The translations under genes and the position numbers were made by a program. Below the pieces are notes generated by a model. The model did no database searches and had not been told where the DNA came from. It worked only from the letters and a program-made list of their open reading frames with translations. A stretch of 64,000 nt of DNA from an uncultured Pseudomonadota bacterium (GTDB lineage: Bacteria > Pseudomonadota > Gammaproteobacteria > Burkholderiales > Methylophilaceae): assembly GCA_903876765.1 (NCBI GenBank), contig CAIRBH010000031.1, positions 1 through 64,000 on the forward strand. Reading direction: 5' to 3'. Positions 11,985-25,817 of this stretch are shown here, in pieces. The stretch's first letter is position 1. Each line of letters opens with the position of its first letter.

Positions 11985-13577
11985 TTATTTAACTGTTGGT
12001 TGCTCAGTAAAGCTATGGTATGGCGGTGGTGAGGGCAGTGTCCACTCTAAACCTTGTGCGCCTTCCCAAACTTGAGCTGTCGCTTTTTTACCACCACGGG
12101 CACAGGTCACAATGTTATAAACAAATAATAGTTGTGATAGACCTAGTGTAAATGCGGCAATGCTTGAAATCATATTGAACTCTGCAAATTGTAATGCATA
12201 GTCAGGAATACGACGTGGCATACCAGCCAGTCCTAAGAAGAACTGAGGGATGAAGGTTAAGTTAAATGAAATTGCAGTGAGCCAGAAGTGCAGTTTACCT
12301 AGCTTCTCGTTATACATATGACCAGTCATTTTAGGTAACCAGTAATAAGTGCCGGCCATAATACCCATAATGCCACCCGCAAATAGCGTGTAGTGGAAAT
12401 GCGCTACGATAAAGTAGCTGTTGTGATATTGCGCATCAGCGGCAACGTCAGCTAGCACTAGGCCCGTCAATCCACCAATACCAAAAAGAATAATCCAGCC
12501 TACAGTAAACAACATAGGCGTTTCAAAGCTCATAGAGCCTTTCCACATGGTTTTAATCCAGCAGAAGAACATCACGGCTAATGGTAATGAAATTGCCATG
12601 GTGCTATACATAAAGTAAAGCAGAGCTGGTACAGGCATACCTGATGTGAAGAAGTGATGCGCCCAAACAACCACAGAAAGTACGCCTACTGCCCAGAATG
12701 AGTAAACTTGAGCTTTGTAGCCATACATAGGTTTGCGTGAGAATGTTTCTAGAATTTGTGGAATGAAGCCCCACACTGGTAATAACAAAATATACACTTC
12801 TGGGTGGCCAAAGAACCAGAATAAATGTTGGAACATAATTGGATCGCCACCGCCAGCCGCATCAAAGAAGTGCGTACCAAAGTGACGGTCTGTTAATAGC
12901 ATGGTCACTGCTCCAGCTAATACAGGAATAGTTGCAATCAATAAGAAAGCAGTAATTAACCAGCCCCATACGAACATAGGCATTTTCATTAAAGTCATGC
13001 CAGGGGCTCGCATGTTAAAGACAGTAACGATAATATTAATTGAACCTAGTACTGAAGAAATGCCCAATAAGTGAACAGCAAAAATGGCAAAGTCAACACC
13101 AATGCCACCTTGTATAGACAGAGGTGGATAAAATGTCCAGCCAGTAGCTAGCGCACCATCACCAATGCCAAATAAGGCCAAGGTAAATGGTAATGTTAAT
13201 AAAATTGCAGAAGGCGGCAGCAACCAGAAGCCCCAGTTATTCAAGCGCGGCAAAGCCATATCTGGCGCACCAATTTGCAATGGAATCATCCAGTTAGCAA
13301 AGCCGGTAGCGGCTGGCATTAATGCGGCAAAAATCATAATTAAGGCGTGTACGCCTATCAGCTGGTTAAAGAACTCAGGGTTGATTAATTGCAGGCCTGG
13401 TTTAAATAATTCAGCTCGAATGCCTAAAATCATTGCCCCACCAACAAAAAACATAATCAGCGAAAATGTTAAATACATGGTGCCTATGTCTTTATGGTTG
13501 GTGGTGGTTAGCCAACGCATAATACCCGTTGGGTGTTCAGCATGATCATCATGATGCGCTACTGTTGTTGTACTCAT
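11985..13577 (-). CDS. ctaD: Cytochrome c oxidase subunit I
   Basis: The catalytic subunit (coxA/ctaD) is 530 residues with twelve helices, binding haem a and the haem a3-CuB centre. Visible are the TTNHKDIGTMYL start signature, FWFFGHPEVYILLLP carrying a CuB histidine and the cross-linking tyrosine region, VWAHHFFTSG with two CuB histidines, and VAHFHYTLFAGG with the haem histidines. AGGAG precedes the ATG. It is second in the operon after coxB, then comes the small assembly gene. It is an A-type oxidase by overall character. Confidence 0.97.
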   Translation of the reverse strand: MSTTTVAHHDDHAEHPTGIMRWLTTTNHKDIGTMYLTFSLIMFFVGGAMILGIRAELFKPGLQLINPEFFNQLIGVHALIMIFAALMPAATGFANWMIPLQIGAPDMALPRLNNWGFWLLPPSAILLTLPFTLALFGIGDGALATGWTFYPPLSIQGGIGVDFAIFAVHLLGISSVLGSINIIVTVFNMRAPGMTLMKMPMFVWGWLITAFLLIATIPVLAGAVTMLLTDRHFGTHFFDAAGGGDPIMFQHLFWFFGHPEVYILLLPVWGFIPQILETFSRKPMYGYKAQVYSFWAVGVLSVVVWAHHFFTSGMPVPALLYFMYSTMAISLPLAVMFFCWIKTMWKGSMSFETPMLFTVGWIILFGIGGLTGLVLADVAADAQYHNSYFIVAHFHYTLFAGGIMGIMAGTYYWLPKMTGHMYNEKLGKLHFWLTAISFNLTFIPQFFLGLAGMPRRIPDYALQFAEFNMISSIAAFTLGLSQLLFVYNIVTCARGGKKATAQVWEGAQGLEWTLPSPPPYHSFTEQPTVK

Positions 13578-13635
13578 TACCTTCTCCTAATTACTCAAAC
13601 TAAATAATTGCTGTTGATTCAAATTATATCAATAC

Positions 13636-14808
13636 TTATTGACGCGCGGCTTTAACTTGCGCTGGTTGCAATAGATCGCCAACGCTATTGCCTAGGGCGT
13701 TTCTTTCATAGGTAATCACTGAGGCAATTTCTGTGTCATTTAACAACGCTTTCCATGAGGGCATCACGCGGATTCCGTTTAATACGCGATCTAAATGACT
13801 ATCTTTAAGATATTTCCCGTCGGCACCAAAAATCGGGCCATTGGCAATTTTGCTGCCAGTGAGCGCTGGGAATGCAGGCGGCAAGCCAGCACCGGACACT
13901 TGATGGCAAACCGCACAATTTTTCTCATATACAGTTTTGCCATTGGCTACCAACTCATCTTTGGTCCATTCTTTGTCTGCGCCTGCGGAAGCTTTAGCTA
14001 GCTCTTCTTTTTTGGCAGCTACCCAAGTTTTATATTCTTCTACTGGTAAGGCGTCTACGACCACTGGCATATAGCCATGGCCTTTACCACAGAGCTCTTT
14101 ACATTGGCCACGATAAGTACCGGCTTTTTCTACCTGTACCCAAGTTTCACGTATGAAGCCAGGCACAGCTAGGCGTGAAGAGCCAAATTGTGGCACCCAC
14201 CAGTTATGCATAACGTCGGCTGAGGTCATTAAAATACGCACTTTTGCGCCTACAGGAAGCACTAGGTGGTTATCGACTTCAAGTAAGTAATTTTCATCTT
14301 TTTTACCATCAAAGCCTTTATCTGTTTGCTCTTTTGGGGTGGATAGATTGCTGACAAATTTAATGCCTTGCGCATCACCATCCATATACTCATACTGCCA
14401 GCGCCATTGTGAACCAGTGATTTTAATCACCATATTCGCTTTGTCACGAGTGTTTTCCATCATAATCACGCTGTGATAAGCTGGGATGCCCATAATCACA
14501 AAGTCTATCAGTAGCAGAATGGCGAACGGAATTAGTGTCCAAAAAATTTCAACTGCGGTTGATGGTGCCTTATCTGTTACAGGCTTGAAGTTTTTACTTT
14601 TGCGATGTGCAAAAATAGAATAAATCATGATAGCCAACACGATGAAGAAAATCGCCATGGCAATCAACATAAACTTATTATGTACATGCAATGTATCTAA
14701 GGCCATAGGCGTTACTGGCTCTGGGAAGTTCCAAGAGTAATCAGCATGTGCGCTTAGTGAAGCCAACATTGCTGAAATACCTAAACTAATCTTTCTATAA
14801 CCTCGCAT
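13636..14808 (-). CDS. ctaC: Cytochrome c oxidase subunit II with fused cytochrome c (caa3 type)
   Basis: Subunit II (coxB/ctaC) accepts electrons from cytochrome c. The 390-residue protein has a signal peptide, two N-terminal membrane helices, and a cupredoxin domain whose CuA motif is CKELCGKGHGYMPV. About 60 residues later comes a C-terminal class I cytochrome c domain with CAVCH and a distal VMPSW methionine. The fused domain makes this a caa3-like enzyme that can dock directly with c-type donors such as cytochrome c4. TGGAG lies about 10 nt before the ATG. Confidence 0.95.
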   Translation of the reverse strand: MRGYRKISLGISAMLASLSAHADYSWNFPEPVTPMALDTLHVHNKFMLIAMAIFFIVLAIMIYSIFAHRKSKNFKPVTDKAPSTAVEIFWTLIPFAILLLIDFVIMGIPAYHSVIMMENTRDKANMVIKITGSQWRWQYEYMDGDAQGIKFVSNLSTPKEQTDKGFDGKKDENYLLEVDNHLVLPVGAKVRILMTSADVMHNWWVPQFGSSRLAVPGFIRETWVQVEKAGTYRGQCKELCGKGHGYMPVVVDALPVEEYKTWVAAKKEELAKASAGADKEWTKDELVANGKTVYEKNCAVCHQVSGAGLPPAFPALTGSKIANGPIFGADGKYLKDSHLDRVLNGIRVMPSWKALLNDTEIASVITYERNALGNSVGDLLQPAQVKAARQ

Positions 14809-14829
14809 AACACTTACTCCAAAACTATA

Positions 14830-15309
14830 TTAGTTAATATTTTTTAATTTTTTTCTGAGATCACGCGCCAATAGAGCGCGCTGCTCGTCAGTGATAAAAT
14901 TCCGACCAAACTCTACTTCGTTACCGTGTGAACTGATAAAAAGAGCACTTTTACCATTGCTACCTTGAAACTTTAAGACATCACGCACGTTGACTTGTGC
15001 CCAATATCTTTGAAAAACCGTTTTAGTGATTTTTTGATCGTGCTTTTTTTCTACTATCACCTGGTCTTCTTCTATGGTGATGCTTTCAAAATCGTCCGCA
15101 TGCAAATACACCGTATAAAAGGCATAGGCGAAGGCTAAAATTTCTAGTCCAGCAAACGGCAAAACCAACCATGCCCCTATGCTGGCAAAACCTAAAGCTA
15201 TTACCAATGCTAATGATGCCAGCGCTGCCAGAAGCTTAATGCTGTCATTAGGTGATAGCGAGTTATTTGGTCTTGTAATAATCTTATAACCAAAGTCTGA
15301 CACCGGCAT
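14830..15309 (-). CDS. DUF2244 family membrane protein, first gene of the oxidase operon
   Basis: A 159-residue protein with two adjacent membrane spans (about residues 27-65, LLAALASLALVIALGFASIGAWLVLPFAGLEI region) and a soluble C-terminal half. DUF2244 proteins are frequent neighbours of cox operons in proteobacteria; their role is unknown. I chose ATG 15309 because AGGA is 6 nt upstream; a TTG two codons earlier is less likely. It leads the coxB-coxA-ctaG-coxC transcript. Confidence 0.8.
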   Translation of the reverse strand: MPVSDFGYKIITRPNNSLSPNDSIKLLAALASLALVIALGFASIGAWLVLPFAGLEILAFAYAFYTVYLHADDFESITIEEDQVIVEKKHDQKITKTVFQRYWAQVNVRDVLKFQGSNGKSALFISSHGNEVEFGRNFITDEQRALLARDLRKKLKNIN

Positions 15310-15739
15310 AGTCAATCCTGAATTAAAAAACTTTACAGGCTACTTTTAAGTCGCCTAATTTCAAGTCTAAGAAATAAATTTTAGAGTTAAAGCCTAGCTT
15401 AAGCGCTTTTTTAACATGCGACACTTTGACGCAGTGCAAAAATAACACGAAAAGTCATTTAGCTCAAGAAAATAATTACATTTTATTAACAATTCTAGGG
15501 TTTTTATGTGGGGGTTTATTCACGGAAATGGCGCTGCATATTCTTATGCGGTTTTGACTTATATGAGTGAATATGACACTATCTAATCATTAATAAAAGT
15601 AAAAAGTCTTATGGTTCTATGCTTAAATGATGCACAGGCTCAATAGGCTCAATAGGCTCAATAGGCTATATAGGCAAATTATCAATGCACATTCATAAGA
15701 TCAATTCCCTAGAAATATCTCTCTACGGTAATCGCAATA
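15310..15739. other. Divergent control region between the oxidase operon and the redox cluster
   Basis: These 430 bp hold no gene I can support. They must contain the promoters of the oxidase operon (minus) and of the three-gene redox cluster (plus). A 9-bp tandem repeat sits at 15636-15675. No sigma-54 site or clear FNR box was found by eye. Confidence 0.55.
15636..15675. repeat. 9-bp tandem repeat upstream of the redox cluster
   Basis: AGGCTCAAT occurs three times in a row (15636-15662), then a variant AGGCTATAT and a final AGGC. It ends about 65 bp before the GTG start of the next gene. Confidence 0.85.
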
Positions 15740-18229
15740 GTGGCAAAAACTAAGAACCCAGTTGTAGTAGCTGCCAAAACACATTTTAACGTCATCATTA
15801 TTGGTGCTGGTCCTAGCGGCTTATCTGCCGCCGTTCGTGCCACCGAGCAACAGGTGGATTATTTGCTAGTCGAAGCTGCGGCGGCGCCCGCTTCTACTAT
15901 TCGTAGTTATCAACGCGGTAAATTAGTCATGTCTGAGCCGCGGGGCTTGCCTTTGCGCAGCACATTGCCTTTTAGTGCTTCGTTGCGCGAAAACGTGCTC
16001 GAGACTTGGGAAAAAACCATAGCAGATTTTAACGTCAACGTGCGTTATGAAACTAAAGTAGTGGGTTTAACGCGCGGTGAAAATCTACTTGAACTGGTGT
16101 TGGCTGATGGTGGCAAGTTAACGGCGCATCATGTGGTGTTAGCGATGGGCGTGCAGGGCAATCTGCGTAAGTTGGAGATTCCAGGCGGCGACTTACCTCA
16201 AATTCAATATCAGTTAGACGACCCGCAAGCCTACCAAAATGAAACCATAGTGGTGGTCGGTGGTGGTGATAGTGGCGTTGAAAACGCCTTGGCACTGACT
16301 GGCCGCAACCAAATTATCATACTCAATCGTGCAGAAGACTTTAGCAATTGTAAAGATAGCAATCTAAGCCAACTGACCGAAGCGAGAAAGCGTGGTGCGC
16401 TAGACTGGTTGCTAGAAACTAAGCCGCAATCTATAGAAGTGAATACTAAGGGTGATTTTCCTATTACTGTTTATGCCAATACCTTAAATGGTGTGGAACG
16501 CATCCCTTGTCATCGTGTGATTGCGCGGCTTGGCGCTCTGCCATCTCGACCAGTACTTGAAAGCTTTGGCGTCGGTTTTGCAACGCCAGATTTAGAAGCC
16601 CTGCCACAATTGACTTCACATTACGAATCTAGCATTCCTGGCTTATATATTATTGGCGCATTAGCCGGCTACCCTTTGATTAAGCAGGGGATTAATCAAG
16701 GTTATGAGGTAATTGAATACATCTTAGGCAACCCAGTAGAGCCAGCAGATAATGCTTTGTTAAGAGAAAAGTTCGCCAACTTCTGCGATGACAGAGGGGT
16801 GGATGATGTATTAGAGAAAATTCGCAAAAGCGTGCCTTTGCTGGCTATGCTCAACACCTTGCAATTACGAGAGCTAGTCTTAGAAAGCAATATTTTATTA
16901 CCCAAAGCCGGCGAGGTCATTTTTAAAAGGAATGATTACAGCACCACCTTCTTTTTTATAGTGGATGGCGAGCTAGATATTCTGATAGACGATGATGAGG
17001 TGCCAGATGGCAGGCTTAAGGCAGGTGAGTTTTTTGGGGAGTTAGCTTTGGTGTCGGGTCGTCGTCGGGCTGGCACGGTTCGCACTAGCACGCCCTGTGT
17101 CTTAATCGAAACGCCTAGACGGGTGATGCAAAAATTGATTGATTCCGTGCAGTCTATGCGGCGCATACTCAATGAAGTGGCGATTAAGACCATAGTGCAT
17201 CTTTGTATCGGTTTGTCGCTGAGTGAAGAAGACCTCAATGATGTGGCCAATAACGCGACACTAAAAAACTATGCAGCGGGTGAGGAGCTATTTCATGAAG
17301 GCGATGAGGCCGATGGGCTTTATCTTATTCAAAGCGGCTCGGTCACAGTGTCACGCATGATAGGCGGCAGAGAGGTTGTGTTATTTTATGTAGCGGCTGG
17401 CCATTATGTGGGTGAAATGTCGCTGGTTTCTGGCGAGCCACGCTATGCAACGGTGCGAGCTGCGATTGCTACCGAAGCCGTGTTAATTGAGGCTGGGCGC
17501 ATGAGAGACATCATTGCCCGTAATCCAGAAATCCGCAGCGAGCTAGATGCCCGTTACCTACAGCATTTGCAGGATAACGAAAACCGCCAGCAGCTAGAAA
17601 CTGCTTTTGATAGCAATAATGCCACAGGTACAAAATCTACCCCGTCTAATCTCATCTCTTTCTTAATTCAGCAAGGGGTAGGTGAGGCGACCGATGTATT
17701 GCTCATTGATGAATCTTTGTGTGTACGTTGCAATCATTGTGAGCAAGCTTGTGCCGACACGCATGGCGGCGCAACCAGATTAGATCGCGATGCTGGGCCG
17801 ATTTTTGCCAATATTCGAGTCCCTACCTCATGCCGCCATTGCGAACATCCGCATTGCATGAAGGATTGCCCACCTGATGCGATTCACAGAGCGCCACATG
17901 GCGAGGTGTATATTGATGACAGTTGTATTGGTTGTGGTAATTGCCAACAAAACTGTCCTTACGATGTGATTCAGATGTCAGTCATACATGATCAGCCTGA
18001 GCCCAGTATTTTACAGATGCTACTGGGCATACGGCCAAAAGCATTGCCAGTGGTAGATGGTGCAAAAGTAGCGGTTAAATGCGATATGTGTAAAGACATC
18101 ACTGGCGGGCCAGTGTGTGTTCGGGCTTGTCCAGTCGGGGCGGCTTTACGTGTTAAGCCAGAAGAACTGCTCAGCTACGCCAGTGGCCATGCGGGTGATT
18201 CTAATTTAATCAGTTCAGATGAAAGTTAA
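15740..18229 (+). CDS. FAD/NAD(P) oxidoreductase fused to two cyclic-nucleotide-binding domains and a four-cluster ferredoxin
   Basis: An 829-residue multidomain protein without signal peptide or membrane span, hence cytoplasmic. Residues 16-330 are a thioredoxin-reductase-like flavoprotein: GAGPSG (22-27) for FAD and VVVGGGDSG near 170 for NAD(P)H, but no CxxC redox pair, as in YpdA-type enzymes. Two cNMP-binding domains follow at about 355-480 and 485-620. Both have intact phosphate-binding cassettes (GEFFGELALVSGRRRAGTV and VGEMSLVSGEPRYATV) with the nucleotide-binding arginine. Residues 655-810 form a DmsB/HybA-like ferredoxin with four cysteine clusters: CVRCNHCEQAC from C661, CRHCEHPHCMKDCP, CIGCGNCQQNCP, and CDMCK...CVRACP. 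The start is GTG. It leads a cluster with a b-type membrane protein and a decahaem cytochrome. It probably feeds NAD(P)H electrons to them under nucleotide control; this is inference. Confidence 0.85.
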   Translation: MAKTKNPVVVAAKTHFNVIIIGAGPSGLSAAVRATEQQVDYLLVEAAAAPASTIRSYQRGKLVMSEPRGLPLRSTLPFSASLRENVLETWEKTIADFNVNVRYETKVVGLTRGENLLELVLADGGKLTAHHVVLAMGVQGNLRKLEIPGGDLPQIQYQLDDPQAYQNETIVVVGGGDSGVENALALTGRNQIIILNRAEDFSNCKDSNLSQLTEARKRGALDWLLETKPQSIEVNTKGDFPITVYANTLNGVERIPCHRVIARLGALPSRPVLESFGVGFATPDLEALPQLTSHYESSIPGLYIIGALAGYPLIKQGINQGYEVIEYILGNPVEPADNALLREKFANFCDDRGVDDVLEKIRKSVPLLAMLNTLQLRELVLESNILLPKAGEVIFKRNDYSTTFFFIVDGELDILIDDDEVPDGRLKAGEFFGELALVSGRRRAGTVRTSTPCVLIETPRRVMQKLIDSVQSMRRILNEVAIKTIVHLCIGLSLSEEDLNDVANNATLKNYAAGEELFHEGDEADGLYLIQSGSVTVSRMIGGREVVLFYVAAGHYVGEMSLVSGEPRYATVRAAIATEAVLIEAGRMRDIIARNPEIRSELDARYLQHLQDNENRQQLETAFDSNNATGTKSTPSNLISFLIQQGVGEATDVLLIDESLCVRCNHCEQACADTHGGATRLDRDAGPIFANIRVPTSCRHCEHPHCMKDCPPDAIHRAPHGEVYIDDSCIGCGNCQQNCPYDVIQMSVIHDQPEPSILQMLLGIRPKALPVVDGAKVAVKCDMCKDITGGPVCVRACPVGAALRVKPEELLSYASGHAGDSNLISSDES

Positions 18230-18240
18230 CGGATAGGCTG

Positions 18241-19071
18241 ATGCAACATAGTAATATTTTTGACTATAAAAGATACCGCTACTTTAAATTAGCCGTCATC
18301 ATCATTTTAATTGCATTTGCTGCTTACTTGCTGTTTGAGCCAGCGGTGGGGCATTACGGTGGCAGCTGGTTAGGCTATGCCTTAGGCACGGCCTCCGCGC
18401 TATTGGTGTTTATTTTAGCTTGGTATGGGGTTAGAAAACGTCGCTATCGCAGCAGAGGCACTACCCAAGGGTGGTTGTCTGCGCATATTTATTTGGGCAC
18501 AGCCCTTACTTTTCTTGCGACCTTTCATAGCGGGCTGCACTTTGGCCTTAATGTTCATACCGTCACATATGGCCTATTGCTGGTGGTGGTGGTCAGTGGT
18601 TTTTTTGGCAATTACGCCTATATGATTTATCCGCGCCTAATGACGGAAAACATGGGGGAAGAAAACCTAGACGGCTTGCTGCTGCGCATCGCTGAATCAG
18701 ACAAAATGGCGCGGCAGATAGCCTTATTAATGCCAGATGACATTAATGACACTGTGGCTAGGGCTTGTAGAGAAACGTCTATAGGCGTGAGCTTGCTCGA
18801 GCAACTTAAAGGTTTTCAGCCAGATTGCCCATCAGCCATGGCAGTACAAAAATTAACCTCGTTGGGTAATGATTTGTCCGTCGAGCACCGAAAATTATAC
18901 CGTGACCTTTATTCTATTATGGTGAGACGTGAATCTTTGGTCAGGCGCGCCAGGCAAGATTTGATGTACCGCGCTAGGATGGGTTTCTGGTTGTATTTTC
19001 ATGTGCCGTTTTCAATCGCCCTATTAATGGCCATGATAGCCCATGTGTTGGCGGTGTTTTTTTACTGGTAA
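18241..19071 (+). CDS. Five-span membrane protein, probable b-type cytochrome subunit
   Basis: The 276-residue protein has hydrophobic helices at about 15-33, 45-65, 80-100, 104-130 and 250-275. Histidines sit in or at the ends of helices in haem-ligand-like positions: SAHIYLGTALTFLATFHSGLHFGLNVH in two neighbouring helices, and FHVPFSIALLMAMIAHV in the last. A charged 110-residue cytoplasmic loop rich in Arg and Glu separates helices four and five. No named family can be assigned with certainty; it resembles cytochrome b or ferric-reductase-like membrane domains. It starts 12 bp after the flavoprotein gene and ends 16 bp before the decahaem gene. The obvious reading is an electron carrier across the membrane between them. 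Confidence 0.6.
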   Translation: MQHSNIFDYKRYRYFKLAVIIILIAFAAYLLFEPAVGHYGGSWLGYALGTASALLVFILAWYGVRKRRYRSRGTTQGWLSAHIYLGTALTFLATFHSGLHFGLNVHTVTYGLLLVVVVSGFFGNYAYMIYPRLMTENMGEENLDGLLLRIAESDKMARQIALLMPDDINDTVARACRETSIGVSLLEQLKGFQPDCPSAMAVQKLTSLGNDLSVEHRKLYRDLYSIMVRRESLVRRARQDLMYRARMGFWLYFHVPFSIALLMAMIAHVLAVFFYW

Positions 19072-19086
19072 TTTAAAAATATTAAT

Positions 19087-20718
19087 ATGATTAATTGCCT
19101 GTTAATGAAGATTTCTCATAACTCCCGCGGCTTGCTGTCGCGAAGTTATCGCACTATTTCGTCTGAAGAAATTAGCATAGGTCGCGGTGCCGAATGCACC
19201 ATCCATCTTTTAGATCCGCGTTTGGCCATGCATCATGCGGTGATTAAAAAATTAGACGATGGTCAGCTCTATCTAGTTGCCATTAATGGTGAGCTTTCGG
19301 TTGATGGTGCCCAGCTGCAAAACGTAGAGTTAACACACGGCAAAACGGTGAATATTGGCCCGTATCAATTAAAAGTTGAGCCAGCACCGCCCGATGTCAA
19401 TCTAGCAGTGTCGCTATCGTTGCAGCAACGATTGCCTGACGACTTTCAAGATTTAAAATTGCGCACTCACGAGCCGCTTCGGGGTGCGGCAAGCTTTAAG
19501 CGCCAATTTTCTTTGTGGATGGTTGCATTGATAGCGCTGATATTCTTGGTTTTGCCCTTAGCGCAGAATTTAATACCCGCAGTGCACAAAGCCATGGCAG
19601 AGCTGCCGCTAGGCTTTGATCGGGTGTGGAGCCCAGGGCATATTTCTAATTCTCACCTACATTTTGGTGCACAATGTTTTAATTGCCATGAAGTACTGAC
19701 GCGTAAAGTGGCAGATAAAGCTTGCATCAAATGCCATCGCGACACACCACCGCATATTGCTGACCCCGCATTGCAAAAACGTGTATTTAAAACCACAAGC
19801 TTGTTTTCTGATGGCATACGCTGCGCTGAGTGCCATAGAGAGCATAAAGCACCACACCCCATAGCGCGGCAAGATAATGCCACTTGTGTCAAATGTCACG
19901 CCAACATTAAAGCGGCTGATGCAAACACTAAGCTGCCTAATATTCACGATTTTGATCTTGATCATCCTGACTTTGATCTAACCTTTAGAACAGGCTCCAC
20001 TGAGGGAGGTGCGGCGCAAAAGACAGAACGTATTCCACAGGCAGAAACGGCGCGCTTAATTGAAAAATCTGGCCTAAAATTTCCGCATTCGCAGCATGTG
20101 GGCTTAGTGCAAGGGCCTAATGGAATATGGGATGTACGTGAACTTTCATGCACCAATTGCCATCAGCAAGAAGGCAAAGAATTGCGTTTAAAACCGATAG
20201 TCTATCAACGTGATTGCCAGCTTTGTCACGCCAATCAATTGCAACTTGGCAGTAAAAATAATACATTCAGCGTGCCGCATGGTGCAGAACAAAATGTACT
20301 CAATGCGCTAAAGGCGCAAGCACCTAAAGACTTGGCGCGCCACTTGGATACGCTAAAAACTACTGGTTGTGCTTATTGTCATGAAGTGCAAACCGCGCAA
20401 AAAGACGAAGCCTTGCCTTGGCGCATCACGCCAGTGCAAATCAACCAAGATTGGTTTAGCAAAGCACATTTTAATCACGCCTCACACCGCACGCAGCAAT
20501 GCCAGTCTTGTCACAAAGTGGAACATTCCGAGAGCAGTGCAGACGTTGCCATGCCAGATAGAAAATCTTGCCTGCGCTGCCATTCTGGCAATAAGCCAAA
20601 ATATAAGCGCATTACCAGTACTTGCATGTCTTGCCATGACTTTCACAGCTCTCACATACCGCAAGAGACTATCAAAAAGATAGATGGTAAAAAGCTCAAT
20701 GACACAGCGCCAGATTAG
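19087..20718 (+). CDS. FHA-domain decahaem cytochrome c
   Basis: A 543-residue protein joining three parts. Residues about 10-100 form a forkhead-associated domain (ISIGRGAECTIHL, then HHAVI), a phosphothreonine-binding fold. One membrane span lies at about 140-162 (FSLWMVALIALIFLVLPLAQ). A multihaem domain then holds ten CxxCH motifs from C197 (CFNCH) to C513 (CMSCH), with additional histidines for second axial ligands. The topology implied is FHA in the cytoplasm and haems in the periplasm. The first four haems are spaced like cytochrome c3/c7 or NapC-type arrays. There is no signal peptide; the span must serve as uncleaved signal anchor. A second ATG at 19105 is possible. It is the last gene of the three-gene cluster, and a long hairpin follows. 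Confidence 0.85.
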   Translation: MINCLLMKISHNSRGLLSRSYRTISSEEISIGRGAECTIHLLDPRLAMHHAVIKKLDDGQLYLVAINGELSVDGAQLQNVELTHGKTVNIGPYQLKVEPAPPDVNLAVSLSLQQRLPDDFQDLKLRTHEPLRGAASFKRQFSLWMVALIALIFLVLPLAQNLIPAVHKAMAELPLGFDRVWSPGHISNSHLHFGAQCFNCHEVLTRKVADKACIKCHRDTPPHIADPALQKRVFKTTSLFSDGIRCAECHREHKAPHPIARQDNATCVKCHANIKAADANTKLPNIHDFDLDHPDFDLTFRTGSTEGGAAQKTERIPQAETARLIEKSGLKFPHSQHVGLVQGPNGIWDVRELSCTNCHQQEGKELRLKPIVYQRDCQLCHANQLQLGSKNNTFSVPHGAEQNVLNALKAQAPKDLARHLDTLKTTGCAYCHEVQTAQKDEALPWRITPVQINQDWFSKAHFNHASHRTQQCQSCHKVEHSESSADVAMPDRKSCLRCHSGNKPKYKRITSTCMSCHDFHSSHIPQETIKKIDGKKLNDTAPD

Positions 20719-20746
20719 CCTAAGCTTGAGTTTAAGCTTAGGCTAA
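20715..20746. terminator. Long perfect hairpin between convergent genes
   Basis: TTAGCCTAAGCTT and its exact inverse AAGCTTAGGCTAA (13-bp stem, GAGTTT loop) overlap the stop codon of the decahaem gene and end at the stop of the converging small gene. There is no T-tract, so termination would be weak or factor-assisted on either strand. Confidence 0.6.
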
Positions 20747-21048
20747 TTAGCCTGAGTTGTATTGCTCTGGGTATATAGCGTTACCCGATACTTAGCCCAA
20801 TAATAAGCATCCAGTATAGAAATAGCATAGATAAAAATCCCACCTGACAACTTGCCGACCATGGAAATATGCGGCTGCGCTAAATTGAAGGTGATGAGGC
20901 CAAGAATCACCATGAAACTGACCATCAAAAATCCGCGTTTAGGCGTATTGTTGAATACCTGCCCCATGCCAGGCAATAGAATGGCAATGAGTAGTATCCA
21001 CTTGGCGTCAAATGGAGGTTTTTTGCTATTGTTATGTATGTTTGTCAT
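20743..21048 (-). CDS. Small membrane protein of unknown function
   Basis: The 101-residue protein has a charged, lysine-containing N-terminus and about three hydrophobic segments (WILLIAILLPGMGQVF, GFLMVSFMVILGLITFNL, and IFIYAISILDAYYWAKY). The sequence LPGMGQVFN followed by RGF recalls small membrane proteins of the TM2/DUF5683 type, but I cannot assign a family. AAGGTAA precedes the ATG. It is on the strand opposite the redox cluster, downstream of the 223-residue gene with a 35-bp gap, so those two may be co-transcribed. Confidence 0.55.
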   Translation of the reverse strand: MTNIHNNSKKPPFDAKWILLIAILLPGMGQVFNNTPKRGFLMVSFMVILGLITFNLAQPHISMVGKLSGGIFIYAISILDAYYWAKYRVTLYTQSNTTQAN

Positions 21049-21082
21049 CGCTTACCTTTAATTTTGTATTTTTTAATTTTGG

Positions 21083-21754
21083 CTAGTTGATTAACTTAAA
21101 TTCAGGGTTTTCTATGTGCTGCCTAATGGCGATTGCTTGTTTTAGCAGCGCTTCCACCAAGTCTTTGCTGACCGGCGTATTTTCATAAACCGCATTACGC
21201 ATAATCAGATATTCACCTCGCTCAGCCTGCTTAATCATACAGGTCAATCTGACCATGCTGGGGGTGATGAGTAATTCTTTCATGTTGATATCAGCGAATA
21301 ATGTTGGCACATACGGGCCTAATAAAGTTAAATCTACCGGCTGCGTTTTAAATTTAATTATGGCATGTTGCGGCCAATTGGGGGGTATTGCTAAATTGCC
21401 ATCCCACTGCCAAGATGGGCTATAAAACTCGTTATTACTGGGTCTGATGATGATGTCTAGGCTACCATGGCTAGGTTTTTTTGCCGCTACTTTAATGAGT
21501 AACCAAAGCGGGGGCAGCTTGCGCCAACCCAGCGTATCTTCAACAACGCTCAAGCTCACAGGGTAATCTGCGTAACTGCCATGTACTATAGGCAGCTTGG
21601 CCTTATCTTGGCTTGTGTGTGCGTCTTGAAATAAAGACAGGCAATCATCAAACAGATGTTCTCGTGCCTGAATTTTATAATGGACGGCAAAACGATGTTT
21701 GCGATACATCAGCACGACCATTATCACGAGTAAAGCTAATACCACTATATTCAT
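21083..21754 (-). CDS. Membrane-anchored protein of unknown function
   Basis: The 223-residue protein has one N-terminal membrane span (MNIVVLALLVIMVVLMYRKHR) and a soluble remainder with no motif I recognise. ATG 21754 is chosen because AAGGGTGA lies just upstream; the longer reading starts at TTG and has no such site. It follows the permease gene by 66 bp on the same strand. It could be part of the permease transcript or a separate unit. Function unknown. Confidence 0.55.
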   Translation of the reverse strand: MNIVVLALLVIMVVLMYRKHRFAVHYKIQAREHLFDDCLSLFQDAHTSQDKAKLPIVHGSYADYPVSLSVVEDTLGWRKLPPLWLLIKVAAKKPSHGSLDIIIRPSNNEFYSPSWQWDGNLAIPPNWPQHAIIKFKTQPVDLTLLGPYVPTLFADINMKELLITPSMVRLTCMIKQAERGEYLIMRNAVYENTPVSKDLVEALLKQAIAIRQHIENPEFKLIN

Positions 21755-21820
21755 GTTCACCCTTGGCTGGCAAAAGTCCGAAGACAATTGCCAGTTTGCT
21801 GTAAAAACTCAAATCAAAAT

Positions 21821-23212
21821 TTAATAGCCTTTAGGGCGTGGCCAGGGCATGGTGAACTGGTCGGCACGTTTGACGTATTTGTAACGGCGTAATACAAACC
21901 AGATAGAAGCTAAAATGTAAAATGCCATGATAGATAATAGTGAAGCGCCATAGCCTAAGAATGTCGCAAAGTAGGTGGCACAGCACAAAGTGAGCAATGT
22001 AATGGCAGGAATAGGGTGGAAAGGATGTATGTAACCACGATGTATGCTGCCTAAAGGCCACATTTTTCTGAACTTAATCATGTTAAATGTCATGAAGGTG
22101 TAGCTGAGCAAGCCTGACAAGATAGAGAAGGTGATGACCTGATCTAGCAAGCCAGTAAATGCAAATGATATAGCAATCGGCACTAAAAACAGTACTGAGC
22201 GATAAGGCGTGCGATATTTAGGGTGGATAGCACCGAAAAATACTGGCATATAACGATCCCGTCCTAGCGAGAACCAAGCGCGTGATGCATCGTTGATACA
22301 GCCATTGGCTGAGGCAATCGCCGCAAAAGCGGTTGCGACAAACAACATTAATTGCAATTGACTACTACCTAGTAGTGTTGCAGCATCATACATAGGCGTT
22401 ACAGCTTGCCCCAAGTATTGCCAAGGCATTAAGCCCGCTGCCACAAACCAAGTGATAGTGGCCGCTACCAGCAATGTCATCATGCCGCCCATGGTGCCAA
22501 GTGGAATAGAACGCCCCGCGGAACGAACCTCTTCAGCGGCTTGACAGGTGCCCTCAATGCCGAGGTAATACCACATACCAAATTGCAAGGACGCCACGAC
22601 GCCTATCCAGCCATAAGGTAGATCTGTCAGCAAGCCCTCGTGTTGCAGAACCACGCCTTGGTGCAAAGGGTCGACTGAAAAGAACAGTACCACCAAGGAC
22701 ATAAAGGCGAGAAAAGTGATCACCAGATTAAGCGTCAAGGTGGCAAACACACCGCGATAGTTGAGCCATGCTAGAAAAACCACCGTCAGCACCACAAACG
22801 GCTTGGTATCGAGGCTGGTATAACCCATCACTTCTGCGCCAGACTTCATGAGATCGCCAACCACCAGCGCGTCAGCTGCACACAGCATGGTATAAGCCAT
22901 GACCAAGTACAGCCCCACATTAAACGCCATTAAGGGCCCAATAATGTGTTTGGCTTGCGTGTATTGCCCGCCAGCCGCGGCTACGGTAGAGGTGACTTCA
23001 GAATCTATCATCGCCACACAGGTATAAAGCAAGCCTATGACCCAACAAGCGATCAGTGAAGCGTATGCGCCTCCCTTGCCTACGGTAAAGTTCCAGCCCA
23101 TAAATTCACCCACTAGCACTATGCCAACGCCCAACGCCCATATATGAAACGGGTTGAGCACTTTGAGCATGGCGATAGGTTTGCTGCTACTGCTTATTTT
23201 TTCGCTAGCCAT
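21821..23212 (-). CDS. APC-family amino acid / ethanolamine-type permease
   Basis: A 463-residue secondary transporter with about twelve helices. The N-terminal segments (GVGIVLVGEFMGWNFTVGKGG, SEVTSTVAAAGGQYTQAKHIIGP) and YYLGIEGTCQAAEEVRSAGRSIP closely resemble the ethanolamine permease branch of the APC superfamily. Placed directly downstream of the NMG operon, it is a candidate carrier for methylamine-related compounds, for example an N-methylated amino acid, gamma-glutamylmethylamide or an amine. That assignment is inference from context. Its ATG overlaps the stop of the preceding 60-residue gene (TAATG), with GGAG upstream, so the two are translationally coupled. Confidence 0.8.
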   Translation of the reverse strand: MASEKISSSSKPIAMLKVLNPFHIWALGVGIVLVGEFMGWNFTVGKGGAYASLIACWVIGLLYTCVAMIDSEVTSTVAAAGGQYTQAKHIIGPLMAFNVGLYLVMAYTMLCAADALVVGDLMKSGAEVMGYTSLDTKPFVVLTVVFLAWLNYRGVFATLTLNLVITFLAFMSLVVLFFSVDPLHQGVVLQHEGLLTDLPYGWIGVVASLQFGMWYYLGIEGTCQAAEEVRSAGRSIPLGTMGGMMTLLVAATITWFVAAGLMPWQYLGQAVTPMYDAATLLGSSQLQLMLFVATAFAAIASANGCINDASRAWFSLGRDRYMPVFFGAIHPKYRTPYRSVLFLVPIAISFAFTGLLDQVITFSILSGLLSYTFMTFNMIKFRKMWPLGSIHRGYIHPFHPIPAITLLTLCCATYFATFLGYGASLLSIMAFYILASIWFVLRRYKYVKRADQFTMPWPRPKGY

Positions 23213-23394
23213 TATGTCATCTCCTTATCCATATGCACGCCATGCACTACCTCATCTTCACTGCCTTCGCGTGAACTCATGAGATATGCTTCATCATATT
23301 GTGACGAAATCATAAATGCATCGACCAACATCCATATCAGCATGGTCGCTGATAGGCTCCAAGTTACATAGACCAAAATATCCCAAAATCCCAT
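23212..23394 (-). CDS. 60-residue single-span membrane protein, permease-linked
   Basis: The protein begins with one hydrophobic helix (FWDILVYVTWSLSATMLIWMLVDAFMI) and ends in an acidic hydrophilic tail of about 30 residues. GAGGAG sits before the ATG, and the stop overlaps the permease start by one base, strong evidence that it is a real gene of the permease operon. Not recognised as a named family. It may be an accessory subunit of the transporter. Confidence 0.7.
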   Translation of the reverse strand: MGFWDILVYVTWSLSATMLIWMLVDAFMISSQYDEAYLMSSREGSEDEVVHGVHMDKEMT

Positions 23395-23424
23395 GATGCT
23401 TCTCCTCTATTAGTGTACAACTAA

Positions 23425-23817
23425 TTATTTATTATCGAATTTTTCTCTAATGACTTCACGGTATTCTTTGTCTGATACCTTTAACATAAACCAAAAATAG
23501 CCGCCAACCACCACTATGGTAATGATCAACATCACAGGATCTATGGTGTAATCAAAACGACTATTAATTAAACTAGCCGCCTTATCTGGGTCGTAGCCTA
23601 GCTTAATCCATTGCGCTTGCTGTACAGCGTTTTGCCCTAATGACTCCCAAGTTGCCTTGACCGCAGTTGCAGCCGCAGCCGCAGCATCTTCTGCCTTAGC
23701 GGCAGCCTTAAAAAGCAAGGGTAGCATTAAGCTGGAGTAAACCAGCACCAGTACTAATATGGTGTCAAAAATTTGGCCAAACATGCCCTGATTGGGCGGG
23801 GTGTAGTTTTTATTCAT
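23425..23817 (-). CDS. Two-span small membrane protein, permease-linked
   Basis: The 130-residue protein has hydrophobic helices near residues 14-35 (IFDTILVLVLVYSSLMLPLLF) and 97-118 (VMLIITIVVVGGYFWFML), joined by an alanine-rich stretch and a loop containing WIKLGYDPDKAASL. The start ATG 23817 follows TAAGGAGA at good spacing; the longer open frame has no such site. Both termini are probably cytoplasmic. Unknown family; third gene of the putative four-gene permease operon. Confidence 0.65.
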   Translation of the reverse strand: MNKNYTPPNQGMFGQIFDTILVLVLVYSSLMLPLLFKAAAKAEDAAAAAATAVKATWESLGQNAVQQAQWIKLGYDPDKAASLINSRFDYTIDPVMLIITIVVVGGYFWFMLKVSDKEYREVIREKFDNK

Positions 23818-23827
23818 CAGATTCTCC

Positions 23828-24124
23828 TTAATGATTAATTCTAGCGGCACGATTAGCATCAAAATGCTTGAGGTCTAGGCCGTATATAAAATCTTTATCT
23901 TCTTTGAAATGCTTAGTCATGGAGTAGACAGAGGCGGTGTTGAAAAGCATGAGCATAAAGCTAGAAACGTAAAGTACTAGACGGATATTGCTATCTTTTA
24001 CGATACCCAGCATAGCAACTAGCAGAAAAATAACAGTAGCCCACAATAAGAAAACATCAAACCAAGCCATGAAGCAGTCACGCAAGTACATATCGTGCAT
24101 TCGTTTTTTAAGGTCATTACTCAT
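23828..24124 (-). CDS. Two-span small membrane protein, first gene of the permease operon
   Basis: The 98-residue protein has two membrane helices (AWFDVFLLWATVIFLLVAMLGIV and LVLYVSSFMLMLFNTASVYSM) and a charged C-terminal tail. GGAG precedes the ATG at 24124. It lies 10 bp before the 130-residue gene, in the same direction. No family recognised. With the next two small proteins and the permease it forms a tight set transcribed away from the mgs genes. Confidence 0.65.
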   Translation of the reverse strand: MSNDLKKRMHDMYLRDCFMAWFDVFLLWATVIFLLVAMLGIVKDSNIRLVLYVSSFMLMLFNTASVYSMTKHFKEDKDFIYGLDLKHFDANRAARINH

Positions 24125-24315
24125 TATTATCTCCATATATATTTTTTATTTATTTTAGAATTAAAAATCAGCGTACTGATGGCAGTAGTCAGCCAAACGG
24201 TGGACATAATAGGTAGTGACAAGGCGGTGATAGGGGGTTGTGACTGGGGTAAAGGCAAGATGAATCTTGCGCTGATGCGTCATCAGTGAGAAATACTGGC
24301 GCGTATAAAAGTGAA

Positions 24316-24410
24316 GGTATGCGCATTAAATATGAATAATTGATTAACATTATTGAGGCCGTTGGAGGTCAGCCCCATATTCCAGTAAAAAATTGTTCAT
24401 TGCGCATACC
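24316..24410. repeat. Inverted repeat with 10-bp arms spanning 95 bp
   Basis: GGTATGCGCA at 24316-24325 is matched by the exact inverse TGCGCATACC at 24401-24410. Partial complementarity continues inward (TATGAA-AATT against AATT-TTCAT). The element stands in the leader of the permease operon and could fold into one long stem. Confidence 0.65.
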
Positions 24411-24411
24411 C

Positions 24412-24438
24412 TCATTAAACCCAACACAACATGTTGGG
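24412..24438 (-). terminator. Hairpin after mgsC
   Basis: CCCAACA and TGTTGGG form a 7-bp stem with a 5-nt loop 26 bp past the mgsC stop. On the minus strand only TTT follows, so it may be a weak terminator that allows readthrough to the permease genes. Confidence 0.5.
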
Positions 24439-24464
24439 GGGTGCTAAAAAACGCTAGAAAATAA

Positions 24465-25817
24465 TCAGAATTTCGTGATTCCTGGTATCCAATTTGTGCC
24501 AGCAAGCGGCACTTGCGCCATTGCTGAGGCTTCTATGGTTAACGCCACTAAGTCTTCAGGCTCAAGATTATGTAGATGTGACTTACCACATGCTCTTGCA
24601 ACGACTTGCGCTTCCATAGTCATGACCGCAATGTAATTCGCTAATCTATGCCCAGCTTTAATCGGGTCTAGGCGCTTCATTAGCTCAGGGTCTTGGGTGG
24701 TAATACCAGCAGGGTCTTTACCTTCATGCCAGTCATCGTAAGCGCCAGCTGTGGTGCCTAGTTTGTTATATTCAGCTTCAAGATGTGGGTCATTGTCGCC
24801 CAGGGCAATCAGCGCTGCCGTACCAATGGCTACGGCATCTGCGCCTAGGGCAATGGCTTTTGCCACATCAGCACCATTACGAATGCCGCCAGAAACAATA
24901 AGCTGCACGCTGTTTTTGCCGTTACGATACAAGCCTAAATCTTGTAGCGCTTTAACAGCGGGGCGAATAGCCGCCAAAATCGGCAAGCCTACGTGCTCAA
25001 TAAAGACTTCTTGTGTGGCCGCTGTGCCGCCTTGCATACCGTCCAATACCACCACATCCGCACCCGCTTTAACCGCAAGCGCAACATCAAAGTAAGGGCG
25101 AGTTGCGCCAATTTTGACGTAGATAGGTTTTTCCCAATCGGTAATTTCACGGATTTCAGCGATTTTAATTTCAAGGTCATCAGGCCCAGTCCAATCTGGA
25201 TGGCGGCAAGATGAACGTTGGTCTATGCCTTCTGGCAAACAACGCATTTTTGCCACACGTTTGGTGATTTTTTGGCCAAGCAACATGCCGCCGCCGCCTG
25301 GTTTTGCGCCTTGACCTATGACTAATTCGATGGCATCGGCCTTGCGTAAATCATCGGGGTTCATGCCATAGCGAGAAGGCAAATATTGATAGACCAAAGT
25401 GGTTGAGTGACCGCGCTCTTCTTGGGTCATGCCGCCATCACCAGTGGTGGTACTGGTACCAGCTGCACTGGCGCCACGGCCTAATGACTCTTTGGCTTGG
25501 CCCGATAATGAGCCAAAACTCATACCAGCGATGGTGACTGGCGTTTTGAGGTGAATAGGCTTTTTAGCAAAGCGGGTGCCCAACACCACATCCGTGCCGC
25601 ATTTTTCACGGTAGCCTTCTAATGGATAACGGCTAACGGATGCACCTAAGAATAGTAAGTCATCAAAATGTGGTAATTTACGTTTAGAGCCACCGCCACG
25701 AATATCATAAATACCCGTTGCGGCAGCACGCCTGATTTCTGAGTTGGTATATTCATCAAATGTTGCCGATTGACGCGGAGTCGTTTGCGGTGTTTTATGT
25801 ATTGGATTATCACTCAT
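24465..25817 (-). CDS. mgsC: N-methylglutamate synthase subunit C (glutamate synthase FMN domain)
   Basis: The 450-residue protein corresponds to the FMN-binding, 3Fe-4S central domain of glutamate synthase. It contains GGSKRKLPHFDDLLF, TIAGMSFGSLSGQAKESLGRGAS, VIGQGAKPGGGG and VVLDGMQGGTAAT, typical of the GltB alpha/beta barrel, and CRHPDW, which may belong to the cluster site. With MgsA and MgsB it makes N-methylglutamate from methylamine-derived nitrogen and glutamate. ATG 25817 follows AGGAG; longer readings add an unlikely leader. It is the last gene of the mgd-gmaS-mgs operon and starts 2 bp after mgsB ends. Confidence 0.93.
   Translation of the reverse strand: MSDNPIHKTPQTTPRQSATFDEYTNSEIRRAAATGIYDIRGGGSKRKLPHFDDLLFLGASVSRYPLEGYREKCGTDVVLGTRFAKKPIHLKTPVTIAGMSFGSLSGQAKESLGRGASAAGTSTTTGDGGMTQEERGHSTTLVYQYLPSRYGMNPDDLRKADAIELVIGQGAKPGGGGMLLGQKITKRVAKMRCLPEGIDQRSSCRHPDWTGPDDLEIKIAEIREITDWEKPIYVKIGATRPYFDVALAVKAGADVVVLDGMQGGTAATQEVFIEHVGLPILAAIRPAVKALQDLGLYRNGKNSVQLIVSGGIRNGADVAKAIALGADAVAIGTAALIALGDNDPHLEAEYNKLGTTAGAYDDWHEGKDPAGITTQDPELMKRLDPIKAGHRLANYIAVMTMEAQVVARACGKSHLHNLEPEDLVALTIEASAMAQVPLAGTNWIPGITKF

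Follow-up and report, generated by a model that had tools for sequence, protein, structure and literature searches.

The described systems closest to the locus studied here are the PCC3 and PCC4 clusters (PMC5566968). The inner-membrane protein (IMP) of both has five transmembrane (TM) helices, the motif WX3HX13H on TM3 and TM5 and the motif SGXXG on TM4, and these motifs were assigned to two b haems. PCC4 also comprises a porin and multihaem cytochromes (MHCs) with 4, 5 and 10 haems, and in its subgroup II the gene of an FeS protein (PF13247) lies upstream of the IMP gene. Electron flow in these clusters was modelled from the outside to quinone, the reverse of the outward direction that we favour below, and the word "cyclic" does not occur in the main text of that work (He et al. 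2017, PMC5566968).

Three-Gene Locus

The window is the whole stretch of 64,000 nucleotides that was analysed, and the locus consists of three genes, P1, P2 and P3 (Table 1). They run in one direction, as given in the preliminary description of this DNA, with intergenic gaps of 11 and 15 bases in the ORF list instead of the 12 and 16 stated there. P2 has all the IMP features listed above, and P1, which matches PF13247 (E 4e-8), lies directly upstream of it, as in PCC4 subgroup II. The earlier statement that no named system has this make-up was thus incomplete, since P2 carries the PCC3/PCC4 motifs (PMC5566968) and PCC4-like clusters share the gene order, although our literature searches brought up no description of the full combination of domains and genes, nor any biochemistry for a member of it.

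Two related loci, L162 and L163, can be labelled PCC4 from the published description (PMC5566968): L163 encodes cytochromes with 5, 4 and 10 haems, the truncated L162 with 4 and 10, and the FeS gene is upstream of the IMP gene. Their order of FeS protein, IMP and decahaem cytochrome is that of P1-P2-P3; cNMP and Fer4 domains are present in both FeS proteins, which are hit by the P1 profile (E 5e-55 and 2e-53), while the IMPs and decahaem cytochromes match the P2 and P3 profiles. Unlike P1, however, the PCC4-like FeS protein has only one intact cNMP cassette (by eye) and no fused thioredoxin-reductase-like module, the flavin reductase being encoded on its own as an FNR/2Fe-2S protein; the decahaem proteins have no FHA match, and the cluster also includes genes for a tetrahaem protein and for a candidate porin. 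Of the PCC4 set of porin and 4-, 5- and 10-haem MHCs, the present operon has only the decahaem gene. No other multihaem ORF of at least 100 aa is listed at 12000-25000, and Pfam finds no porin or 4-/5-haem MHC family on three neighbour genes. PCC3 shares with P2 the double WX3HX13H and the SGXXG, and the IMP of L161 (PCC3) matches the P2 profile (E 1e-17). Its cytochromes, in contrast to P3, are giant repetitive MHCs, the IMP gene of L161 being followed by that of a 27-haem cytochrome, and a divergent 435-aa protein, about half as long as P1, matches the P1 profile (E 3e-64).

The proposed path from pyridine nucleotide over FAD to a transmembrane b-haem pair with HX13H recalls the NADPH oxidases and ferric reductases, an analogy already named by He et al. 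(PMC5566968). Nevertheless, P2 has no match at E<=0.01 to PF01794, the transmembrane domain of those enzymes, and the module has an unrelated flavin domain, FeS clusters in between and a decahaem outlet. As a trans-envelope multihaem conduit it may also be compared with MtrAB/MtoAB with NapC/NirT, but P2 shows no NapC match in Pfam or NCBIfam and the MtoAB-like genes of the host lie elsewhere in its genome (G000:C40).

Scans for promoters and terminators, and for FNR boxes, gave counts at chance level, and the CRP-box scan was slightly above it, with at least as many boxes in 6 of 100 shuffles; no FNR or CRP site was found at 15316-15739, upstream of P1. The inverted repeat at the end of the operon is a possible two-way terminator.

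Table 1. Features of the operon in window coordinates.
Feature	Coordinates	Strand	Remarks
P1 gene	15740..18229	+	829 aa, GTG start; FAD/NAD(P) oxidoreductase, two cNMP domains, four ferredoxin-type clusters; predicted cytoplasmic
P1 FAD/NAD(P) module, residues 16-321	15785..16702	+	thioredoxin-reductase-like
P1 cNMP domain 1 phosphate-binding cassette, residues 432-447	17033..17080	+	E434 and R443 in 63/63
P1 cNMP domain 2, residues 509-595	17264..17524	+	best Pfam stretch of PF00027
P1 cNMP domain 2 cassette, residues 557-572	17408-17455	+	E559 in 63/63, R568 in 61/63
P1 four ferredoxin-type Cys clusters, residues 661-797 (C661-C797)	17720..18130	+	16 Cys in 63/63
P2 gene	18241..19071	+	276 aa; five-helix, probably dihaem-b inner membrane protein, PCC3/PCC4 IMP superfamily
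P2 W78-x3-H82-x13-H96 (TM3)	18472..18528	+	motif and alignment
P2 S119-G-x-x-G123 (TM4)	18595..18609	+	motif and alignment
P2 helical domain between TM4 and TM5, residues 143-211	18667..18873	+	AlphaFold model
P2 W250-x3-H254-x13-H268 (TM5)	18988..19044	+	motif and alignment
P3 gene	19087..20718	+	543 aa; FHA, TM anchor, decahaem cytochrome; decahaem part predicted periplasmic
P3 FHA domain, residues 29-91	19171..19359	+	R33 kept; Ser position is A47
P3 single TM helix, residues 134-162	19486..19572	+	
P3 ten CXXCH, residues 197-517	19675..20637	+	ten candidate distal His between H190 and H520
Inverted repeat, perfect 12-bp, 6-base loop	20716..20745	.	covers convergent stops of P3 and next gene

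Domains of the Three Proteins

The make-up first described for P1, with FAD and NAD(P) sites, two intact cNMP cassettes and four ferredoxin-type clusters, is borne out by Pfam and by the alignments. The flavin region matches PF13738 (19-306) and PF07992 (16-321), and its closest solved relatives are Bdr/YpdA and the thioredoxin-reductase-like ferredoxin-NADP reductases (7a7b, E 5e-15), from which it differs in being fused to cNMP and ferredoxin domains. The redox-active CxxC of thioredoxin reductase is absent from the first 345 residues of P1 in 20/20 representatives. PF00027 matches in two stretches (E 8e-38), and the tandem resembles the regulatory domains of PKA and PKG in sequence (best E 4e-30), with the difference that it has no kinase and sits inside an oxidoreductase. 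PADLOC matches to Pycsar effector and cyclase models all fall on this cNMP region, and we have discarded them as a sign of a defence system. Several Fer4 models match between residues 692 and 801, and the FeS clusters are not due to chance because all 16 cysteines are invariant in the 63 P1 proteins. N-terminal extensions of 350-480 residues in the P1 of five loci (L148-L152) are, by eye, out-of-frame GC-rich translation and not fusions. Five of the P1 matches were reported with one internal stop codon.

P2 matches no Pfam or NCBIfam family above cut-off, and Foldseek gives no fold match at E<=0.001, the VIA rows being generic helix bundles. Its AlphaFold model has five long helices (13-31, 43-68, 75-97, 105-129 and 214-275), and the four motif histidines are invariant in 47/47 aligned proteins, so the five-span protein with helix histidines noted earlier holds. 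P2 is probably a dihaem-b protein. The domain between TM4 and TM5 is probably cytoplasmic and would be a candidate docking site for P1.

P3, with its multiple CXXCH and distal histidines, is a multihaem c-type cytochrome. In the 80 P3 proteins of more than 500 aa, eight candidate distal histidines are present in 80/80 and the other two, H223 and H253, in 79/80; one of the ten motifs is CX4CH in eight Gallionellales/Magnetococcales-type loci. The FHA domain reported at first is confirmed by PF00498 (E 3e-8), by the model and by Foldseek (best E 3e-6, with the FHA domains of GarA and OdhI on top), and it would lie on the cytoplasmic side.

Conservation and Spread

The three genes form one cluster also in relatives, and the absence of co-conservation that would have spoken against the initial proposal was not observed. 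P3 is downstream of P2 in 78/80 loci, the other two being cut off by contig ends. In 59/80 the gene directly before P2 is P1, and in two loci of Magnetococcales the two are fused (61/80 together); the 19 genomes that lack it at the locus all carry it elsewhere, three of them as partial matches (G065, G068 and G078); many of the 80 loci come from one genus, and these counts are not independent. In a phylum sample of 397 genomes, P1 is found in 17 (E<=1e-100), always with P2 adjoining, and P2 in 18 (E<=1e-60), genome-wide scans having scored at most six or two candidates per genome. Within the genus, P1 occurs in 34/41 genomes and in 25/26 of the high-quality ones. The P2 profile gives at least 573 confirmed stretches in a collection of 84,980 species, among which there may be distant IMP relatives; P2 relatives occur in Gallionellales, and Methylotenera oryzisoli La3113 and Sphingobium herbicidovorans MH are among the named carriers. 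The P1-P2-P3 module is related to known cytochrome conduits, and it is widespread but has been little studied. The parts, their order, their co-conservation and the conserved ligand residues are read directly from these genomes.

Proposed Electron Path and Its Control

It is rather probable, in our view, that the three genes encode a module for electron transfer in the inner membrane, similar to NADPH oxidases and ferric reductases, with a cytochrome c outlet and a nucleotide switch. What follows is a proposal for the cofactors, the pairing of the haems, the complex, the outward direction and the acceptor. NAD(P)H would be oxidised at the flavin module of P1, and the four FeS clusters of the same protein would take up the electrons. 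P2 would carry them across the membrane on two b haems, with H82/H254 as the inner and H96/H268 as the outer pair, to the ten bis-His c haems of P3, anchored beside P2. This path, suggested already in the preliminary description, remains plausible from the sequences. Outward flow from NAD(P)H is downhill in redox potential and in the inside-negative gradient. P3 would then deliver to a partner in the periplasm or outer membrane that depends on the lineage: in many Alphaproteobacteria and Burkholderiales an HbpS-like/barrel/decahaem-LVIVD module, the genes of which adjoin the core in 32/80 loci, in the present genome possibly the MtoAB-like proteins, and in other cases the common pool of periplasmic cytochromes. 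None of the 41 genus genomes has the LVIVD decahaem protein, an informative result because the same query found the family in other genomes (LVIVD-only matches in G091 were not counted as outer cytochrome), and in 17/41 the doubled-CXXCH (PF09699) matches are confined to P3; therefore, extracellular transfer is not general.

The electron exit is probably gated by a cyclic nucleotide, judging from the cNMP domains. Both are predicted to be nucleotide-competent, each having the Glu and Arg of the phosphate-binding cassette, and the conservation of these contact residues comes close to that of the FeS cysteines. A cyclic nucleotide, most likely cAMP, bound between the flavin and FeS modules would switch the flow; without such a switch, NAD(P)H and membrane potential would be lost. 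NOX enzymes, for comparison, are gated by calcium. We consider it possible, somewhat short of an even chance, that cAMP or another nucleotide directly opens or closes the NADPH-to-cytochrome current, the gating and its sign being part of the proposal. Encoded in the host genome (G000:C25) is a class III cyclase, presumably an adenylyl cyclase by its motifs, with relatives in 2/127 stretches scanned. PF00211, the cyclase family that this search covered, has no match in eight of the 41 genus genomes, and all eight carry P1 (two as partial matches). A metallophosphoesterase, named CpdA in one record, directly follows P3 in two Sphingobium records, and this neighbour is confined to those two loci among the loci compared.

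Cyclic-nucleotide binding is absent from many cNMP domains of bacteria, and those of P1 could be purely structural. That binding can be lost in relatives is suggested by two PCC4-like proteins without the Glu/Arg cassette in the second domain (by eye); even so, we regard this as unlikely for P1, the two cassettes being retained among 20 representatives that share less than 70% identity (E434, E559 and R443 in 20, R568 in 19).

A conduit working inward, from outside or periplasmic cytochromes over P3 and P2 to P1 with reduction of NAD(P)+ or FeS centres, would run uphill against redox and membrane potential unless energy is put in. Carriers such as Methylotenera and Sphingobium are not known to be iron oxidisers, which also counts against it. 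We find this direction improbable, even if PCC3 and PCC4 come from iron oxidisers and were modelled as electron uptake (PMC5566968), P2 relatives and MtoAB-like genes occur in Gallionellales and in this genome, respectively, and a cluster with a 10-motif "Forkhead-associated protein" is found in 27/87 iron-oxidising Gallionellaceae (PMC10734462). There is an equally small chance that P2 exchanges electrons with the quinone pool. P1 would then pass electrons from NAD(P)H to quinone, or P3 would be an outlet supplied by quinol, and the halves need not be one wire. A quinone-active cytochrome b was suggested by He et al. (PMC5566968), and one genome (G039) has P2-P3 with no P1 match at E<=1e-100; against this, P1 adjoins P2 in 17 of the 18 sampled genomes with P2, besides the Magnetococcales fusions.

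The preliminary description had given the conduit two sensory inputs. Intact cNMP sites agree with the first, but the second, a phosphothreonine protein at the FHA domain, is unsupported because the domain keeps the Arg but not the Ser and the host shows no Hanks kinase. Phosphothreonine-binding FHA domains have a conserved Arg, Ser and Asn, and P3 does not keep this set: the Arg is present in the 82/82 P3 that have the domain, the SxxH Ser in 15/84 (Ala here) and N at columns 67 and 73 in 34/84 and 35/84, and two relatives have no FHA domain. Despite the true GarA/OdhI-like fold, the retained Arg and Pkinase matches in 35/41 genus genomes, we judge docking of a phosphorylated regulator very unlikely, with no Pkinase match in five operon carriers, namely the host (90% complete) and G006, G015, G020 and G027 of the same genus, some of them incomplete. 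In the outward, nucleotide-switched module that we prefer, the FHA domain would be a docking or assembly module.

Conclusions

Studies on the control of electron export, whether extracellular or periplasmic, usually deal with gene expression. Nucleotide sensors fused into the dehydrogenase of the conduit would give direct post-translational control. Inner-membrane proteins like those of PCC3 and PCC4 were linked by He et al. to the quinone pool (PMC5566968), and the operon suggests NAD(P)H as an electron donor for them. As there are isolates among the carriers, we think that the idea is testable now. If true, a second messenger would act on electron export within seconds and not via transcription, and the family concerned is represented in hundreds of sequenced genomes.

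Conservation of the operon

The host genome (G000; 1.9 Mb, 53 contigs, 90% complete) carries the three genes on one strand, with gaps of 11 bases between P1, the 829-aa FAD/NAD(P)-cNMP-ferredoxin protein, and P2, the 276-aa five-helix putative b-haem membrane protein, and of 15 bases between P2 and P3, the 543-aa FHA-TM-decahaem cytochrome. A search of 84,980 species genomes with a profile of P2 confirmed at least 573 stretches, and the locus counts rest on the best 80 of them. In this set P3 lies directly 3' of P2 in 78 of the 80 loci, both misses being contig edges, and P1 lies directly 5' of P2 in 59. P1 and P2 are fused in two loci, both from Magnetococcales, and P1 is outside the fetched locus in the other 19, in all of which it was found elsewhere in the genome (as partial matches in G065, G068 and G078). 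In the seven of these separate P1 loci that were fetched (L148–L154) the gene comes after that of the LVIVD decahaem protein described below.

These 80 loci are non-independent events, many of them coming from one genus, and 397 genomes sampled evenly from the phylum are a cleaner test of co-conservation. In this sample strong P2 matches (E ≤ 1e-60) were found in 18 genomes and P1 (E ≤ 1e-100) in 17, and in 17/17 of the latter P2 is on the same strand, at most ~330 bases away. Thus, the three genes, seen as one cluster in the preliminary description, are co-conserved, as shown both by P3 following P2 and by P2 accompanying P1. In the genus of the host, P3 was matched in 27 of 36 other genomes of a first set, and P1 is present in 34 of the 41 genomes of a second set and in 25 of its 26 high-quality ones. 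Among the matches listed, 18 of the 29 nearest loci (P2 identity ≥68%) bear the label Methylotenera, and the nearest P2 locus that of Sulfuritalea.

The surroundings of the operon include the short tandem repeat AGGCTCAAT and what look by eye to be the genes coxA and coxB, the latter with a cytochrome c motif at its C-terminal end; coxA adjoins the operon in just six of the fetched loci.

Coordinates of the operon genes and of the related features in fetched loci (L numbers)
Feature	Location	Strand	Remark
P1 ORF	window 15740-18229	+	ORF listing
P2 ORF	window 18241-19071	+	ORF listing
P3 ORF	window 19087-20718	+	ORF listing
Short tandem repeat	window ~15636-15675		intergenic, 5' of P1
coxA + coxB	window 11985-14808	opposite to operon	just 5' of operon; identified by eye
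Outer module (HbpS-like, barrel candidate, decahaem LVIVD protein)	L107:13014-20585		equivalents in L083-L133
NapC/NirT, MtrB/PioB barrel and DmsE-family decahaem genes	L156:2412-7205 (G000:C40)		host genome
Cytochrome c554-like protein, 456 aa	L154:8177-9547		between LVIVD decahaem gene and P1
Second P1, with class III cyclase-domain protein nearby	L169:2469-9962 (G100)		P2 and P3 absent from fetched stretch
Short IMP-like protein, then 10- or 8-haem cytochrome	L164:4675-6251
Short IMP-like protein, then 10- or 8-haem cytochrome	L166:5976-7318
435-aa protein matching P1 profile	L161:4649-5956		E 3e-64
449-aa protein matching P1 profile	L165:1477-2826		E 5e-61

The membrane protein and its relation to PCC4

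P2 matched no family above its cut-off. Its residues H82, H96, H254 and H268 are invariant (47/47) and form part of the pattern W-x3-H-x13-H, S-G-x-x-G, W-x3-H-x13-H. The sequence of P2 is in this respect exactly like the published description of the inner-membrane proteins (IMPs) of the putative conduits PCC3 and PCC4, which He et al. took as binders of two b haems (PMC5566968). Six weak matches from the 397-genome scan and one PCC3-like locus of the genus are IMP-like proteins adjoining multihaem cytochromes. All seven align with P2 on the four histidines, Trp78 being absent in the two shortest. An unrooted FastTree tree places the seven in one clade (support 0.98) with long branches; the point at which this clade joins the P2 sequences has no support (0.13). 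In L164 and L166 the short IMP-like proteins (192 aa) form one more branch of the IMP superfamily. The 435- and 449-aa proteins in the region of the PCC3-like IMP genes of L161 and L165 presumably correspond to the flavin part of P1.

Two further loci, L162 and L163, show the gene order tetrahaem cytochrome, FeS/cNMP protein, IMP and decahaem cytochrome, with an FNR/2Fe-2S protein preceding the tetrahaem gene and, in L163, an additional pentahaem protein. Both loci fit PCC4 subgroup II as published, the label being assigned from the description and not from the sequences of He et al., and therefore we consider the operon of the window a relative of PCC4. The preliminary description knew of no named system of this make-up. 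That view no longer holds for the order FeS/cNMP protein, IMP and decahaem cytochrome, which PCC4-like loci share, whereas the different reductase, a fused flavin module, and the FHA domain do set the operon apart. The FHA domain was either gained by the window-type decahaem cytochrome or lost by PCC4.

Flavin, cNMP and ferredoxin parts of P1

P1 combines a FAD/NAD(P) module with Fer4 domains and two stretches that match PF00027. The nearest solved structures to the flavin module are Bdr/YpdA and thioredoxin reductases. No CxxC was found in this module in 20 representatives, and TrxR-like ferredoxin-NADP reductases are likewise not known to have one. The conservation of R197 in 58/63 sequences hints at NADPH over NADH as the substrate. 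All 16 ferredoxin cysteines are kept in 63/63. In the two cNMP cassettes the Glu is present in 63/63 and 63/63 and the Arg in 63/63 and 61/63, both exceptions being His; among 20 representatives below 70% identity, the cassette residues are found in 20, 20, 20 and 19. Both cassettes are thus intact, as had been described, and the tandem resembles the regulatory domains of PKG/PKA.

Haems and FHA domain of P3

P3 joins an FHA domain to cytochrome c3/c7-type domains. Ten CXXCH motifs are present in 70 of 84 sequences. Of the remaining 14, eight combine nine CXXCH with one CX4CH, whereas the last six do not reach ten: four are truncated at 210–386 aa, and the other two, L106 and L098, have seven and nine motifs. 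Each of ten candidate distal histidines is conserved in 79 or 80 of the 80 sequences longer than 500 aa.

Structure prediction and structural search confirm the FHA fold as genuine. Its phosphate-contacting Arg is kept in all 82 P3 having the domain, which is absent in L035 and L036. The Ser position is Ala in 37, Ser in 15 and Asn in 7 of 84, with others in the rest, and at the two columns that are candidates for the Asn, N is present in 34 and 35 of 84. Pkinase matches are lacking in six of 41 genomes (G000, G005, G006, G015, G020 and G027, several of them incomplete), five of which have the operon; the other 35 possess kinases. With Ser in 15/84, mixed Asn columns and no Pkinase match in the host, the phosphothreonine input formerly proposed for this domain is not supported. 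A 10-motif "Forkhead-associated protein", placed under "Other", with no role given to it, in the part of PMC10734462 concerned, occurs in 27 of 87 iron-oxidising Gallionellaceae and, from its description there, is taken to be P3.

Outer partners

At least one outer-module gene lies beside the core in 32 of the best 80 of at least 573 loci: an HbpS-like protein in 31, a barrel candidate that matches Alginate_exp at a borderline level also in 31, and an LVIVD protein in 28. The LVIVD protein (~1290 residues) has ten CXXCH in 30 of 32 copies, the other two being truncated. Distant members of a nine-member alignment retain 63–68% identity to its first sequence, a degree of sequence conservation more suggestive of an enzyme than of a plain wire. 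Of 18 chosen genomes, 7 gave matches to the LVIVD protein, one of which (G091, with LVIVD-only matches) is not counted; of the 41 genus genomes, none did.

The outer module also gave a weak local match to ExtM. Relatives of the cytochrome c554-like protein of L154 occur in 15 other loci, at other places in the neighbourhood.

On contig C40 of the host genome the MtrB/PioB and DmsE-family matches are above the cut-off and that of NapC/NirT just below it. In 17 of 41 genus genomes doubled-CXXCH matches are confined to P3, and therefore an outer-membrane multihaem partner of such kind is not required. In published work, Methylotenera from a humic bog was noted to have putative genes for PCC and Cyc2 (PMC6344600), and M. 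versatilis 301 to have PCC3 (PMC5566968).

Proposed mechanism

Of the 41 genus genomes, 33 gave a class III cyclase match; the host is one of them, and its protein has what we take to be adenylyl cyclase motifs. The eight genomes lacking such a match all have P1, two as partial matches. A metallophosphoesterase directly follows P3 in two Sphingobium records, and none of the other loci among the 102 mapped shows this arrangement. In G100, ~1.7 kb separate the second P1 from a divergent protein of 1092 aa that has a class III cyclase domain.

We think that the most economical reading is a route in which electrons would pass from NAD(P)H to FAD, the FeS clusters, two b haems and finally ten c haems, and in which the cNMP domains, located between the flavin and FeS modules, would act as a gate; the steps past domain content and co-conservation are those that we infer. 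Outward flow is downhill in both redox potential and membrane potential. An ungated module would therefore be a leak, which would give a reason for a built-in switch.
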